From contig SHZD01000002.1 of the NCBI GenBank assembly GCA_009692465.1, positions 1 through 64,000 on the forward strand: a stretch of 64,000 nucleotides of DNA. The letters are read 5' to 3'. The notes under the pieces are model-generated. The model was not told the DNA's origin, did no database searches, and worked only from the letters and a program-made list of their open reading frames with translations. This DNA is from Myxococcales bacterium. Its GTDB lineage: Bacteria; Myxococcota_A; UBA9042. The position numbers were made by a program, and so were the translations under genes. Below are positions 4,158-53,100 of the stretch, one piece after another; positions within the stretch are counted from its first letter, which is position 1; each line of letters begins with the position of its first letter.

Positions 4158-6479
4158 ATGATTTTGCTAAATAATAGCGATTGGACCCTTCGTCTGAGGG
4201 ATCTTACAGAATCGAATGGTTTTTGTTGGCGACCGCTGGCTGGTGGCCTTCGCCGCTCAGGGGTAGCGCTCGCGGCCAAGGGTGTTTGTGCTGCCCTTGC
4301 GGTCAGTGTCCTTGCTAGCACGGCCTGCGTCGGCGGCAGCAGTGACGGCTCCTCTGGACCCGCCATTGCCAGCGTGACCGACGCTGCGGTGGCCCGCTTT
4401 AACGTTGACGTCGGCAAGTCTGCCCCTAAAACCAGTAGCGATGCCGCTCAGGACAGCAGTGGCGGCAGCGCACCGACCGGCCAATCCGGCGACAGCGCAT
4501 CACCGCCGTCTGGCACCGTCGATAGCGGCGAGCAGGCCGACTCTGCGGTGGCAGCCAGTGCGGAGGGCGTCGATTCCAAGAGTCCAGATAGTTTGGCTAA
4601 TTCGCAGAACTGTGAAAAGGACAAGTTCTGCATCGACGCCAGCGACTGCCCGGTAACCCCGTGTACTCAGGGGCAATGCAAAGGTGGCTGCTGCATCGTG
4701 TCTCCCGTTGTCGACGGCAAGACTTGCGACGACAGCAACAAGTGCACCGCCACCGACACCTGCAAAGTCGGCGTGTGCACCGGCAAGGCCAAAAGCTGCG
4801 ACGACGGCAAGGACTGTACCGCCGACAGCTGCAACACGGTCAACGGCAAGTGCGTGAGCGTCATCGCCGACAAATCGTGTTTGATCGTCGGCAAGTGCGT
4901 GGCTCAAGGCGAGGTTAGCCAAGCGAGCGCCTGCAAAACTTGCGACCCCGTCAGCAGCACTGACAGTTGGACTGTTGCCGCCAATTGCTGCGCCGACGCC
5001 AGCGAGTGCCCGCCGGCCGGTGTGTGCGATACCCCTGTGTGCGACCCTGTCGCCCATACCTGCGGGTTCGAGAAGAAAGTCGGTTGCTGCATCCAAGACA
5101 GCGACTGCAGCGACGCCAATGCGTGCACCAAGGACAGTTGCGATGTGGCGCTTGGCGTGTGCAGCTACGCGGCGATCAGTTGCGTGGATCCCAACCCGTG
5201 TCAGGCCGCAACATGCGTGGAAGCGACCGGCGAATGCAAAGCGGTCACCAAGCCCGGCTGGTGTATGGTCGATGGCAGTTGCCACACCGAGGGCGCTACC
5301 AGTTCAGCGAACCCGTGCTTGGTTTGTAACTCGGCGAAATCAAATACGGAGTGGAAAACCGCTATCGGCACTGCTTGCAGCGACAGCAACCCGTGCACCT
5401 ACGGAGACAGCTGTCAGGTCGGCGGCAAGTGCGTCGGTTCACCCCAACAGGGTTGCTGTCAAAGCAACGCCGACTGCAAACCCACCGGCGATCCCTGTGC
5501 CGCCAACGTCTGCGATCTTGGGCAAGGCTTGTGCATTTCCAAGAGCTTAGCTGGGTGTTGCACTAGCGGTACCTGCTGCGACGCGGCCACTAATTCGGTC
5601 AAGCCGGCCAAAAGCACCTGTGGCGGAGGCGCGATCAGCGTCCAGTACCAGTGCAGTGGCCAAATTATACAAAGTCAAGAAATTTCGCCTGGTTGTAATG
5701 GGGCGAGCGCCACCGGTTGCTCCAGCCAGACCCAGTTCTTGGTCAGCGGGCCGTGGCAAAACGTACAGACCTGTCCCGCCAACACCCAGTGCGCGGCGGC
5801 GGGCAGCGGCCAAAAGCCGACTTGTGCCAGCACCCAACCCGCCGGTTCTTGTGCCAATTCGTGCGGGTCCAAGAGTATCACCGGCGTTTGTTATTGTGAC
5901 GCAATTTGCACCGGTGCCGGCGATTGTTGCAAGGATTATATGACGTTTTGTGGCTGCGCTAGTGGCGAATGTTGCGATGTCACCACCAAATTCCCAAAAA
6001 CGGCTGGAACGACCTGTGGCGCGGTCAAGACCCAGTTTCAGTGCAGCGGTAAGTTGGTGCAAAAGCGCACGGGCAACCCAACTTGCGACGGCAAGAACAT
6101 CTGCGCCACCGCCACAGCGAGTATCAAGTGGGGCAGCTATGGCACCACGCAAACCTGTGGATCGACGCAGAATTGCCACGCCGCGGCCGATGGTTCGTCC
6201 GCCAGTTGCGTGGCAATTCCGACTGGCACCTGCATGGGCCACTGTGGCACCAAGAGCACTGGATCGTGCTATTGCGACACGGCGTGCAAGGGCCTAGGCG
6301 ACTGCTGCGCTGACTTTGACAGCGTCGGCTGTGCCACAATGCAAACCTGCGGCGCCAAGGCCACCACCACCTGCAAAGGCAAGTGCGGCGGCCAGGGCAT
6401 TGGCCTGTGCTGGTGTGACTCGTTGTGCGAGTCTATCGGCGACTGCTGCCCTGACAGGGCCGTTTGCGCTTGCAACTAG
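4158..6479 (+). CDS. Cys-rich lipoprotein with three C-terminal somatomedin-B-like modules
   Basis: This 773-residue exported protein has a long n-region, a hydrophobic stretch and the lipobox LASTAC. A Ser/Ala/Asp-rich linker follows (about residues 60-150). Next come repeats of the CDDGNxCTxxDxC type found in giant Cys-rich surface proteins of Myxococcota. The C-terminus holds three modules of the form CxxxCGxxxxxxCYCDxxCxxxGDCCxD (about 561-598, 690-725, 736-770), matching the Cys pattern of somatomedin B, a disulfide-knot binding domain known mainly from animals. The start is not certain; in-frame ATGs exist at 4050 and 4122. The stop codon lies in the CTAG where a family I element begins. 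Function is unknown; a binding or adhesive surface role is inferred. Confidence 0.8.
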   Translation: MILLNNSDWTLRLRDLTESNGFCWRPLAGGLRRSGVALAAKGVCAALAVSVLASTACVGGSSDGSSGPAIASVTDAAVARFNVDVGKSAPKTSSDAAQDSSGGSAPTGQSGDSASPPSGTVDSGEQADSAVAASAEGVDSKSPDSLANSQNCEKDKFCIDASDCPVTPCTQGQCKGGCCIVSPVVDGKTCDDSNKCTATDTCKVGVCTGKAKSCDDGKDCTADSCNTVNGKCVSVIADKSCLIVGKCVAQGEVSQASACKTCDPVSSTDSWTVAANCCADASECPPAGVCDTPVCDPVAHTCGFEKKVGCCIQDSDCSDANACTKDSCDVALGVCSYAAISCVDPNPCQAATCVEATGECKAVTKPGWCMVDGSCHTEGATSSANPCLVCNSAKSNTEWKTAIGTACSDSNPCTYGDSCQVGGKCVGSPQQGCCQSNADCKPTGDPCAANVCDLGQGLCISKSLAGCCTSGTCCDAATNSVKPAKSTCGGGAISVQYQCSGQIIQSQEISPGCNGASATGCSSQTQFLVSGPWQNVQTCPANTQCAAAGSGQKPTCASTQPAGSCANSCGSKSITGVCYCDAICTGAGDCCKDYMTFCGCASGECCDVTTKFPKTAGTTCGAVKTQFQCSGKLVQKRTGNPTCDGKNICATATASIKWGSYGTTQTCGSTQNCHAAADGSSASCVAIPTGTCMGHCGTKSTGSCYCDTACKGLGDCCADFDSVGCATMQTCGAKATTTCKGKCGGQGIGLCWCDSLCESIGDCCPDRAVCACN

Positions 6480-6682
6480 GAGCCTGTCGGAGATCAAACG
6501 CATTTTGAATATCTGTCCGGTTATACACAATGAATCTATTACGATCCGACAGTCTCCTAGCCATTCAGATATTCTCAACTGTCCAAGAACTGTCCGGAGT
6601 AAATCCGTGCAGTTTCGGACAGTTGCCGCCGTCTAGCCAGGCGGCGCTAGGAGCGAGTCGGAATACTCCGACACGCTCCTAG
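6476..6682 (+). mobile_element. Family I MITE-like element, copy 1
   Basis: A 207-bp unit runs from CTAG to CTAG. Ends are CTAGGAGCCTGTCGGA and its near-complement. Four consecutive hairpins can form, the first from the left end and an internal inverted copy near 6560. A perfect DnaA box TTATACACA lies at 6521-6529. The left CTAG contains the stop codon of the preceding lipoprotein gene, and the right end abuts the ribosome-binding site of the next gene. Confidence 0.85.
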
Positions 6683-7651: not shown

Positions 7652-7802
7652 AGACCCGATCAAGTGGGATTTGCTCGGCGGCTCAGTGCTTGCTTGGTGG
7701 GTCGCGAGCCTGCGGCACTTATTCAGTGGCCTGCGGGTTGGCCTCAGGCCGCTCCGTTTTGTTTGGGAATTCTTTGAGGTTCGGCGTCAATTGCTCGGGT
7801 CT
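7652..7802 (+). mobile_element. Family III MITE-like element, copy a
   Basis: The ends are AGACCCGATCAA and TTGCTCGGGTCT, inverted repeats, with CTAG after the right end. Inside is the core CTTGCTTGGTGGGTCGCGAG and a palindromic CCTGCGGGTTGGCCTCAGG segment. It closely matches the copies at 52942 and 58529. The preceding 7490-7651 shows no gene. Confidence 0.8.
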
Positions 7803-7889
7803 CTAGGTGGGTCGCAAGCTCGCGTCTTTACAGCCGACTCGCTGGTCTGCTCATTTCGCGGATCAATCGAGTTGTTCTTTTACACGCCC
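7803..7889 (+). mobile_element. Right half of a family II element
   Basis: GTGGGTCGCAAGCTCGCG through ATCAATCGAGTTGTTC and TTTTACACGCCC matches the right half of the intact family II copy at 32116-32250. The left half is not found upstream of the adjoining family III element, so this is a remnant. It contributes the non-native N-terminal extension in front of tcdA. Confidence 0.65.
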
Positions 7890-14776: not shown

Positions 14777-14982
14777 CTAGGAGCCTGTCGGAAATCAATC
14801 GGCTGTGAAATGTCTATCAGGTTATACACAATGAATCTATTACGATCCGACAGGCTCCTAGCCAGTCAACTATTCTCAACTGTCCGAAACTGGCCGAAGT
14901 GAATCCGTGCAGTTTCGGACAGTTGCCGCCGTCTAGCCAGACGGCGCTAGGTGCGAGTCGGAATACTCCGACACGCTCCTAG
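14777..14982 (+). mobile_element. Family I MITE-like element, copy 2
   Basis: The 206-bp unit is bounded by CTAG on both sides, in the same orientation as copy 1. The 15-bp arms AACTGTCCGAAACTG and CAGTTTCGGACAGTT form a perfect internal hairpin, followed by GCCGTCT/AGACGGC and a third near the right end. The DnaA box TTATACACA is at 14822-14830. It fills most of the gap between ilvE and the next gene. Confidence 0.88.
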
Positions 14983-33720: not shown

Positions 33721-34596
33721 ATGTCCAACGGCAAACCAGCGTCAGCCGGCCTTGAGCCACCCGTGCGAGCCATCGTCGGTTTGGGCAATCCCGGCAAGGC
33801 CTACGCAGCCACGCGTCACAACGTCGGCTTTATGGCGATCGAACTCCTGGCTGCGCGCCATGGAGCGAGCTGGAACGCGAAATTCAACGGGTTGTTTGGC
33901 CGTTGCCAAGTCGTCAGCACTCCAACTGGCGGCGCTACTGGCATTGAGGCCCAGACCTCCAGCCGCGATCGAACGGTGACCACCAGTACCGGCGACCACC
34001 GTACCGATGTCGTGCTGCTGCAGCCGCAGACATTTATGAATTTGAGCGGCCACCCGACCCAACAGTTGGCGGCCTTTTTCGGCTACAAGGCCGAAGAATT
34101 GCTGATTATTCATGACGATTTGGACCTGCCGTTTGGCAAAGTGCAAATCAAAGTGGGCGGCGGCCACGGTGGCCACAACGGCTTGCGGTCGTTGGTCGCG
34201 CAACTGGGGAGCAATGCGTTTGTGCGGGTGCGGATCGGCATCGGTCGACCCACTACGGCCGATGACAGCCCCAGTCGCGATACCGGCAGGGGCGGCGATT
34301 CTGGCAGGGGCGGCGATTCTGGCAGGGGCGGCGATTCTGGCAGGGGCGGCGATTCTGGCAGGGGCGGCGATTCTGGCAGGGGCGGCGATTCTGGCAGGGG
34401 CGGCGACGCCGCAGTGACCCAGTGGGTGCTTTCGCCGTTTAGCCTCGACCAACGCATCGCCTTGCCGGATGTCCTCCAGCGCGCGGTTGCTGCGATCGAG
34501 GCGGTGCTTCGCAGCGGCGCCCGCGCCGCGAGTAATAGCCACAACGGCAATGCTAGCCACACCGGCAGCGGTGGCACCAATCGCGCGAGTTCCTGA
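33721..34596 (+). CDS. pth: Peptidyl-tRNA hydrolase with repeat insertion
   Basis: Pth releases peptides from prematurely dropped peptidyl-tRNAs. It has 291 residues where about 190 is usual. The family core is intact: VGLGNPGKAYAATRHNVGF with the catalytic His, QPQTFMNLSG, IIHDDLDLPFGKV, GGGHGGHNGLRS and the RIGIGRP strand. Two additions explain the length. One is about 30 residues between FGRCQVV and the QPQTF strand (Thr/Ser-rich, with one GDH). The other is six or seven GRGGDS hexapeptides (34285-34410) in the loop just before the conserved VLSPF. The tail is Ser/Asn-rich. The loop lies at the substrate end, yet the rest looks functional. Confidence 0.92.
   Translation: MSNGKPASAGLEPPVRAIVGLGNPGKAYAATRHNVGFMAIELLAARHGASWNAKFNGLFGRCQVVSTPTGGATGIEAQTSSRDRTVTTSTGDHRTDVVLLQPQTFMNLSGHPTQQLAAFFGYKAEELLIIHDDLDLPFGKVQIKVGGGHGGHNGLRSLVAQLGSNAFVRVRIGIGRPTTADDSPSRDTGRGGDSGRGGDSGRGGDSGRGGDSGRGGDSGRGGDSGRGGDAAVTQWVLSPFSLDQRIALPDVLQRAVAAIEAVLRSGARAASNSHNGNASHTGSGGTNRASS
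34285..34410. repeat. In-frame 18-bp minisatellite in pth, about 7 copies
   Basis: Six perfect GGCAGGGGCGGCGATTCT units (34285-34392) are followed by a diverged seventh ending GACGCC (34393-34410). Each encodes GRGGDS. Perfect identity suggests recent expansion and possible copy-number variation. Confidence 0.95.
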
Positions 34597-36321: not shown

Positions 36322-36340
36322 CCTTGCTGGCCCTTGGTTA

Positions 36341-36698
36341 GGCTCTGCGCAAAATCTTATCGATTTCGCACTTCGGCCCACGGATTGCACTTCGGCCCAC
36401 GGATTGCTTGGTGGGTCGCAGACTTGCGGCCTAGGAGCGTGTCGGAGTATTCCGACTCGCTCCTAGCGCCGTCTGGCTAGACGGCGGCAACTGTCCCAAA
36501 CTGCACGGATTCACTCCGGGCAGTTCTTGGACAGTTGAGAATATCTGAGAAGCTAGGAGACTGTCGGATCGTAATAGATTCATTGTGTATAACTGGATAG
36601 ACATTCTATAAACGATTGATTCCCGACAGGCTCCTAGCAAGCCGACTCGGCGCTCCGTTCTTTTTGCGGATTGATCGAGTCATTCTTGCACCTGCTCC
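36341..36698 (+). mobile_element. Family II MITE-like element, copy c (interrupted by family I)
   Basis: The left end GGCTCTGCGCAAAATCTTATCG follows TTA. The right end ATTGATCGAGTCATTCTTGCAC finishes near 36698. The core GGGTCGCAGACTTGCGGC is split from CAAGCCGACTCGGCG by a 207-bp family I element at 36431-36637. In the left half TTCGGCCCACGGATTGCACT is partly duplicated. Confidence 0.8.
36431..36637 (-). mobile_element. Family I MITE-like element, copy 3, nested in family II
   Basis: The unit is bounded by CTAG on both sides and lies in reverse orientation. The DnaA box TGTGTATAA (complement of TTATACACA) is at 36584-36592. Insertion is between TGCGGC and CAAGCCG of a family II element, where the uninterrupted copy reads CGGCTTTGCAAGCC. 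Confidence 0.88.
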
Positions 36699-36780
36699 TA
36701 GGCACACGATCGGTCGCCGGCAGCGGCGAACGGTGGTGCTGCATTTTTGGCCGCAGTTGTCGCGGTCGCCGGGCACAACA

Positions 36781-38262
36781 ATGACCGCACACTCAACCAG
36801 TTCGCTTGCCGTGGTGGTGCTCGCTGCGGGCCTTGGCAAGCGGATGTTTAGCCAAAAGCCTAAAGTTCTGCACGAGTTGCTCGGCGAGCCTATGCTTGGC
36901 CACGTGTTGACCGCGGCGGCAGCACTGCAGCCCAGCAAGATCGTGGTGGTGTGCGGGCATGGCCGCGCTCAAGTCGAGGCGTTTGTTCAAACTTGGACCC
37001 AGCGCCAGCGCGCCAGTTTGCCCGCCGGTCTGCAGCCTCGCTGTGTCGAGCAACCGTATCAAGGTGGGACGGGTCACGCGGTGTTGTGCGCTCAGCCCGA
37101 GTGGAGCGATTGCGACGAAGTGCTTATCTTGTATGGGGATACTCCGCTCCTGACCACCGAAACGCTGGGCGAGTTGCGCCGAGCTCGCGGTCAGGGCGTG
37201 CTGTCCCTGTTGGTGGGCGAGCTCGCCGATCCGAGCGGCTACGGCCGAGTCATTCGCGATGCCCACGGCCAAGTCAGCCGTATTATTGAGCATAAAGACG
37301 CGGACGCCACCACTCGCGCGATCGGGCTGATCAACGCCGGTATGATGTGCGTTGCCGCACCCTTTTTGGCGACAGCCTTGCCGCAGTTGCGGCCGGACAA
37401 CGCCCAAGGCGAGTTGTACCTGACCGATTTGTTGGCGCTAGCGGCGGCGGCGGGCAGCCCGGGTAATCCGCATTTGGTGGACGATCGCAGAGAGATCGCT
37501 GGTGTCAACAACCGTGCCGAATTGGCGACAGCCACTGCCCACCTGCGCGAGCGCATCAACCGCAGCTGGCAGGTGCAAGGCGTCACCTTTGACAACCCCG
37601 CCACCACCTCGGTCGGCGCAGCTGTCACCCTGAACGCCGACTGCCACCTCGGCGCACAGGTTGAACTGCGCGGAGCGACCACAATCGGTGCCGGGGCGCG
37701 CATCGACACCGGTTGTGTGCTGACTGACTGTGAAGTCGCAGAAAACGCTCATATTTTTCCCTATTGCGTCGCTACGGCCGCCACAATTGGTCCGCGCGCC
37801 CACGTCGGCCCTTTTGCGCACTTGCGGACTGGTACAGTGCTTGAGTCTGAGGTCAAGGTCGGCAATTTCGTCGAAACCAAAAAGGCCCATCTGGGCCCAC
37901 GGGCCAAGGCCAGTCACTTGTCCTACCTCGGCGATGCGGAGATCGGTGCTGATTGCAACATTGGCGCCGGCACAATTACCTGCAATTACGACGGTGTCGA
38001 CAAGTTTCGCACCATTTTGGGTCGCGGAGTCTTCATCGGCTCGGATAGCCAATTGGTCGCCCCGATTACGCTGGGCGACGACGCCTATGTGGGCGCGGGC
38101 ACTACGGTTACCGCCGACGTTCCAGCGGGCGCGTTGGTAGTGACGCGCGCTGCCACCACGGTAAAGCTCGGGTGGGTAGCCAAAAAGCGCCAGGCTCGAG
38201 CAGCGGCAAAGGCCTCAGGTGCCGACGCCACCCGTCCCGCTGGCCCCGCAGAAAGCCACTGA
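36781..38262 (+). CDS. glmU: Bifunctional GlmU: GlcN-1-P acetyltransferase and UDP-GlcNAc pyrophosphorylase
   Basis: GlmU makes UDP-GlcNAc for peptidoglycan and lipopolysaccharide. The N-terminal uridyltransferase (residues 1-235) has VVVLAAGLGKRM, the YQGGTGHAV motif, LYGDTPLL and the NAG-binding INAGM. The left-handed beta-helix acetyltransferase (about 255-470) has hexapeptide repeats and the block GDAEIGADCNIGAGTI with CNYDGVDK. The Ala/Lys-rich tail is long. Its 493 residues fit the family. ATG 36781 is chosen because the upstream frame crosses a mobile element. Confidence 0.96.
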   Translation: MTAHSTSSLAVVVLAAGLGKRMFSQKPKVLHELLGEPMLGHVLTAAAALQPSKIVVVCGHGRAQVEAFVQTWTQRQRASLPAGLQPRCVEQPYQGGTGHAVLCAQPEWSDCDEVLILYGDTPLLTTETLGELRRARGQGVLSLLVGELADPSGYGRVIRDAHGQVSRIIEHKDADATTRAIGLINAGMMCVAAPFLATALPQLRPDNAQGELYLTDLLALAAAAGSPGNPHLVDDRREIAGVNNRAELATATAHLRERINRSWQVQGVTFDNPATTSVGAAVTLNADCHLGAQVELRGATTIGAGARIDTGCVLTDCEVAENAHIFPYCVATAATIGPRAHVGPFAHLRTGTVLESEVKVGNFVETKKAHLGPRAKASHLSYLGDAEIGADCNIGAGTITCNYDGVDKFRTILGRGVFIGSDSQLVAPITLGDDAYVGAGTTVTADVPAGALVVTRAATTVKLGWVAKKRQARAAAKASGADATRPAGPAESH

Positions 38263-38791: not shown

Positions 38792-39009
38792 CTAGGAGCA
38801 TGTTAGGAGCATGTCGGAGTGTTCCGACTCGCTCCTAGCGCCGTCTGGCTAGACGGCGGCAACTGTCTGAAACTGCACGGATTCACTCCGGGCAGTTCTT
38901 GGACAGTTGAGAAAATCTGAGAAGCTAGGAGACTGTTGGATCGCAATGGATTCATTGTGTATAACCGCAAAGATATTTAATAACCGATTGATTTCCGACA
39001 GGCTCCTAG
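38792..39009 (-). mobile_element. Family I MITE-like element, copy 4
   Basis: The reverse-oriented unit has a DnaA box TGTGTATAA at 38956-38964. At its left edge the end sequence is doubled: CTAGGAGCATG, then TTAGGAGCATGTCGG. The right flank is CTAG at 39006-39009. Confidence 0.85.
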
Positions 39010-42578: not shown

Positions 42579-42785
42579 CTAGGAGCCTGTCGGAAATCAA
42601 TCGGTTGTGAAATGTCTATCAGGTTATAGACAATGAATCTAGTACGATCCAACGGGCTCCTAGCCAGTCAACTATTCTCAACTGTCCGAGAACTGCCCAG
42701 AGTGAATCCGTGCAGTTTCGGACAGTTGCCGCCGTCTAGCCAGACGGCGCTAGGAGCGAGTCGGAATTCTCCGACACGCTCCTAG
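42579..42785 (+). mobile_element. Family I MITE-like element, copy 5
   Basis: The unit is 207 bp, CTAG to CTAG, in plus orientation. The DnaA box position reads TTATAGACA (42624-42632), one mismatch. The internal end copy reads CCAACGGGCTCCTAG rather than CCGACAGG. It lies 71 bp after the spermidine-synthase-like gene. Confidence 0.85.
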
Positions 42786-52941: not shown

Positions 52942-53100
52942 CTAGAGACCCGACCAATTAACGCCGAACCTCAAAGAATTTCCAAACAAAACGGAGCGGC
53001 CTGACGCCAACCCGCAGGCCATTGAATAAGTGCCGCCGGCTCGCGACCCACAAAGCAAGCACTAAGACGCCGAGCAAATCTTATTTGATCGGCTCTCTAG
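52942..53100 (-). mobile_element. Family III MITE-like element, copy b
   Basis: The 159-bp unit runs from CTAGAGACCCGACC to GATCGGCTCTCTAG, with CTAG at both ends and TIRs of about 13 bp. Reverse-complemented it matches copy a over CTTTGTGGGTCGCGAGCC and CTGCGGGTTGGCGTCAGG. The remainder of the gap, 53101-53255, shows no gene. Confidence 0.85.

Follow-up and report, generated by a model that had tools for sequence, protein, structure and literature searches.

A family I repeat inserted in a family II copy between rplI and glmU of a Myxococcales bacterium: a probable IS1182-type MITE with a conserved covarying core

BOX elements of the pneumococcus and Correia elements of Neisseria are modular intergenic repeats that consist of hairpin modules, are mobile in trans and occur in nested copies. 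The repeat analysed here, family I, answers to much the same description; to our knowledge it is unrelated to either, and it is by description that it is set apart from them. Searches of the PMC literature retrieved no published account of the repeats reported below. In the IS1182 family of insertion sequences, inverted repeats of 16/16 and a duplication of 4 bp have been published for ISPse1 (PMC3281130), and a hairpin-replacing mode of insertion is known for IS1272 and TnSha1 (PMC5678879, PMC4923244).

The window, a stretch of 64,000 nucleotides from a lake-dwelling Myxococcales bacterium, carries between rplI and glmU a family II copy (36341–36697) that is interrupted by a 207-nt family I copy (36431–36637) with CTAG on either side. 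Both genes lie on the plus strand, rplI (ribosomal protein L9; 35875–36321; Pfam PF03948, PF01281) upstream and glmU (36781–38262; Pfam NTP_transf_3, Hexapep) downstream. Read directly, the order of letters is TTA-GGCTCTGCGC...TTGCGGC, then CTAGGAG...GGCTCCTAG, and then CAAGCCG...CTGCTC-CTA. Alignment to family II assigns positions 36341–36430 to the left half and 36638–36697 to the right half of the interrupted copy, both on the plus strand as is the family I element. An earlier note on this DNA had described a family I element inside a family II copy at 36341–36698, which the sequence bears out with almost exact coordinates; only the right end may have to be moved to 36697. The TTA at 36338–36340 represents the left target duplication of family II, since identical 3-mers flank other family II copies, and the CTA at 36698–36700 is its probable right counterpart. 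The same note had counted this as a second nesting. This is right in kind, the earlier nesting (7653–7805) being that of a third family, III, within another repeat. In this family II copy, the left half contains a perfect 19-nt tandem duplication (GCACTTCGGCCCACGGATT, 36368–36405). Another tandem repeat, of 18 bp in seven copies (98% matched), is located at 34277–34406 in the C-terminal part of an apparent pth (peptidyl-tRNA hydrolase) reading frame.

In L062 and L063, from two species of the same genus whose rplI is 90% identical, glmU also follows rplI, and neither element lies between them. From the rplI stop to the glmU start we counted 99 and 96 nt, respectively, versus 459 nt in the window; subtracting 361 nt (358 for II plus I, and 3 for the TTA duplication) leaves 98 nt. 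The empty spacers together with this arithmetic indicate that neither element is ancestral at the locus. The comparison covered one genome per species, and among these the two informative ones carry neither element and none carries family II alone. A further contig (L067), labelled Klebsiella pneumoniae, has an rplI 72% identical to this myxobacterial one and evidently belongs to a mislabelled MAG. That family I arrived after family II, as previously claimed, holds on three counts: family I splits II in register; it is closer to its own consensus (95.7% identity) than the II copy is to its own (80.6%; family II mean 90.9%); and the relatives lack both. Therefore, family II was present at this site before family I. 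Contig ends in this genome frequently fall within family I, so that misjoins at its copies are possible, and one could ask if there was an insertion at all, or if II plus I is a single composite repeat or the junction an assembly join. However, I and II are found apart from each other in dozens of copies, the two halves of II keep the register and complement each other in content, and rplI and glmU flank the locus as in the relatives, which leaves this explanation hardly any probability.

To define the mode of insertion, the flanks of each family I copy were joined and sought in the rest of the DNA examined. Twelve copies, including the one at 36431, sit in DNA with intact paralogues, and all twelve match ungapped with exactly 4 nt between the flanks. 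In total, there were 194 matches at gap 4, none at 6–10 nt and far fewer at 0–3 and 5, the latter being the only gap at which one further copy (L223:8933) matches. The intact tetramer is CTAG in several paralogues, and the others are mostly one or two changes off (CTCG, CTGG, CAAG, ATAG, CTGC, TTTG). Moreover, tandem family I copies have one CTAG in common, and in L229 the internal CTAG of one family I copy has received a family III copy, which has CTGG and CTAG at its sides. Taken together, the register, the tandem copies and the family III insertion show that family I inserts at CTAG with a 4-bp target duplication, which at our locus is seen at 36431–36434 (left) and 36634–36637 (right). The mobility of family I, which the earlier note had deduced from the nesting, thus finds support in twelve cases with intact paralogous sites.

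Intact family II copies carry TTTG (54), TTTT (10), TCTG (2) or CTTG (1) at the split point. The tetramers named before, CTTG and TTTG, are thus correct, CTTG being rare. CTAG was seen at the centre of none of the intact copies counted, and therefore either a two-base change before insertion or the loss of TTTG at insertion has to be assumed. Presumably, the window copy carried CTAG at this point beforehand. According to the other scenario, an IS1272-like transposase would recognise a target hairpin and replace part of it; CTAG would then belong to the element, and the loop of CGGCTTTGCAAGCCG, the central palindrome of family II, would have lost its TTTG. Here the insertion site is indeed a palindrome centre, and one viral IS1182 copy (L159) also lies in a palindrome. 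Yet among 63 family I copies, matched flanks are no more palindromic than swapped ones (mean 4.33 versus 4.15, permutation s.d. 0.13), no paired offset stands out among the flanks, and exactly 4 nt are missing in every case, whereas published deletions vary in size. We thus regard hairpin replacement as unlikely. Flanks that look palindromic by eye are no commoner than with swapped flanks, and no association of the insertion sites with inverted repeats emerged.

Intact family II copies measure about 130 nt (n=48 in the DNA examined) and have the ends GGGCCCGTGCAAAATC and GCACGAGCCC. Identical 3-nt flanks, mostly TAA/TAA or TTA/TTA, were found for 27 of 65 copies versus 9.4 expected, and we propose that family II is another MITE with a TNA target duplication. 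Family III is about 150 nt long, with the ends AGAGCCGATCAAATAAG and AGACCCGACCAATTAACG, and is represented in the window at 7653–7805, 52946–53095 and 58534 and elsewhere at L229:15311–15460. In 20 of 39 copies it has CTAG on both sides, and it also inserts into family I. An internal core (GTGGGTCGC...) is common to families III and II, although II has a TNA duplication. Variant family III ends are directly adjoined by a recurrent hairpin, GGGGGCGGCGCGCCCCCAAGTTTCTAGT (L244:234, L138:674, L191:17590 and about 7620 in the window), and a similar hairpin occurs in genome G005 (L042, L055). A family III end also adjoins an ISAs1-like transposase fragment that is fused, in frame, with a methyltransferase-like segment (L149:967–2325).

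Family I is present in five copies in the window (6476–6682, 14777–14982, 36431–36637, 38803–39009 and 42579–42785). Its end motif CTAGGAGNNTGTCGGA, allowing up to two mismatches, occurs 21 times in the window versus 0.11 expected, and the exact motif CTAGGAGNNTGTCGG 666 times in the 5.8-Mb genome, against 0 for a reversed control pattern. A survey of stretches totalling 1.45 Mb of this genome listed full copies in 79 entries, among which the 38803 copy was called twice. Many contigs of the window's assembly (G000) start or stop inside family I (e.g. L194, L197, L199, L202, L206, L213 and L214), and the true copy number is therefore probably higher. All 67 copies with readable context are intergenic, in DNA that is 81% coding according to a simple codon-usage gene caller; this placement fits mobile DNA under selection against gene disruption. 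Relative to the left neighbour gene, 39 of these copies are in sense and 28 in antisense orientation, with no clear bias. Solitary A or B units (the palindromic ends, see below) were considered as independently mobile parts and discarded, as nearly all are copies cut at contig ends; only about two or three solo A units seem to be real. In another genus, whose own copies are far more diverged, a contig end (G013:C68:9048–9194, L040) bears a copy with 98% identity to family I of the window; either a recent transfer or a mis-binned contig may account for it.

The ends of family I, CTAG plus GAGNNTGTCGGA, are those of IS1182-family insertion sequences. A scan with the end motif led to complete insertion sequences bounded by this exact motif in viral contigs L159 (the same element in L166) and L156. 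The NCBIfam IS1182 transposase model matches the proteins they encode (2e-109 and 3e-113) as well as a partial copy in L158 (7e-73). Within the same bacterial family, contig L169 harbours an IS1182 gene (470-aa ORF) between CTAGGAGCGTGTCGGA...CCGACGGGCTCCTAG, with the exact end motif at both ends. In the same genus, L171 has an IS1182 gene with one complete matching end, the other being lost at the contig edge, and a relative (L173) has an IS1182 gene with a more divergent end pair. The elements of L169, L156 and L159 all have CTAG at both ends. Family I and autonomous IS1182 elements thus have terminal inverted repeats in common, as is expected of an IS1182-type MITE, and the 4 nt seen in 12 of 12 register tests equal the 4-bp duplication of ISPse1 (PMC3281130). 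The 207 nt of family I hold no transposase-sized ORF. Since its ends match IS1182-family insertion sequences in the same family (both ends) and genus (the one end preserved), family I is best read, from its sequence, as a non-autonomous IS1182-type element (MITE). No IS1182 transposase, and hence no autonomous partner, was found in the window's own assembly, where the only match to the model is an IS5-like gene (4.6e-8); other species of the genus have one. This assembly reaches 92% completeness and is broken at repeats, and the missing gene may reflect loss or assembly failure. Transposases of the IS5-like (L148) and ISAs1 (L149, L150) types encoded in the same genome were rejected as partners, as they lack matching ends.

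Hairpins at both ends that stand on a tetranucleotide, hundreds of copies between genes and a conserved structure would also suit a REP/REPIN- or IS200/IS605-like element, which a single-strand transposase (HUH or RAYT type) moves via its hairpins, CTAG serving as the cleavage tetranucleotide. The genome even has two weak Y1_Tnp genes (L126, L127). Neither has the family I end motif or copies nearby, so that no cognate RAYT was detected, and the ends of family I exactly match elements with a DDE transposase (IS1182). Movement by such an enzyme therefore appears very improbable.

The 207 nt are predicted to fold into four stem-loops (RNA z -8.5, DNA z -12.4), all given here for the plus strand. 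Both ends, SL1 and SL4, are palindromes with CTAG on either side. SL1, or unit A (36431–36466), is the palindrome GAGCGTGTCGGA-gtat-TCCGACTCGCTC between two CTAGs, and its outer arm corresponds to the IS1182-type terminal repeat; SL4, or unit B (36553–36637), is a palindrome with an AT-rich body, likewise between two CTAGs, and its outer arm provides the second terminal repeat. The middle is formed by SL2 (36467–36486), a covarying stem, and SL3 (36488–36537), a long covarying stem with a near-invariant apical loop of the GAAUUCACUUC type. Comparison of 16 sequences (five genomes) showed changes on both sides in 24 of 42 pairs, including most SL2/SL3 pairs (24 was reached in 0 of 500 shuffles), and SL1 is conserved mainly by sequence. 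Of 52 genomes searched with a model built from these 16 sequences, 13 gave the element, all of them from the same family, and 0 of 30 genomes outside it did so; G002 and G000 gave at least 63–65 matches, among the 65 scored. From 20 sequences of nine to ten genomes, MAFFT with RNAalifold recovered the SL2-SL3 fold unprompted, with compensated changes at 23 of 27 pairs and a nearly invariant loop, and the covariation spans about eight genera. There are 46 G-U pairs against 6 A-C pairs, and still 23 against 6 once two wobble-rich pairs are set aside. This excess hints that one strand acts single-stranded, but the sequences are related and hence not independent, and a fold predicted on that strand by itself somewhat favours G-U. 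Rfam covariance models gave no gathering-level match and only sub-threshold matches of microRNA models to the hairpins, and the core was not found inside the IS1182 copies examined.

The core of family I represents more structure than a plain MITE needs, and it is the less ordinary part of this finding. That a MITE-like element at hundreds of copies retains its covarying core throughout a bacterial family suggests selection on the folded molecule, beyond the transposase-binding ends. Given the covariation over about eight genera, the near-invariant loop and the G-U excess, we tentatively consider that the MITE might carry SL2-SL3 as a functional structured RNA (or single-stranded DNA) that would serve the mobility of the element or the host, a possibility that we rate below even chances. 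Family I thus offers a testable system for the purpose of such structure.

Altogether, family I is very probably an IS1182-type MITE that was moved in trans, duplicated CTAG and was inserted into a family II copy already residing in the rplI-glmU spacer. For this lineage we infer the following order: family II would have entered the spacer first, the central tetramer of this copy would then have become CTAG, and family I would have been inserted there with duplication of the tetranucleotide, most likely by a putative IS1182 transposase acting in trans. Three points count against this explanation: G000 has no IS1182 gene, no intact II copy among those counted is CTAG-centred, and the core is superfluous for an ordinary MITE. 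As a phenomenon, the nesting of a MITE within a MITE is ordinary. Its value lies in dating two repeat families relative to each other and in revealing a target rule, the CTAG duplication, with no experiment needed. To what the earlier note had described, the present analysis adds the link to IS1182, the duplication of CTAG at the target and the conserved internal structure.

Compared with known systems, family I resembles MITEs of the IS1182 family, with ISPse1-like insertion sequences and those of L169 and L171 as partners, in its CTAGGAGNNTGTCGGA terminal repeat, 4-bp duplication, lack of coding capacity, intergenic location and high copy number. It differs from them in that each of its ends is a full palindrome bounded by CTAG, and in its two-stem-loop core that covaries and is conserved across genera. 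With REP, BIME and REPIN sequences it has in common short extragenic palindromes, hundreds of copies and paired hairpins around a spacer, but no RAYT gene lies alongside, and a DDE transposase suits both its ends and its 4-bp duplication. IS1272 and TnSha1 belong to the same transposase family (IS1182), whereas family I shows no general preference for hairpins and keeps a fixed 4-nt register.
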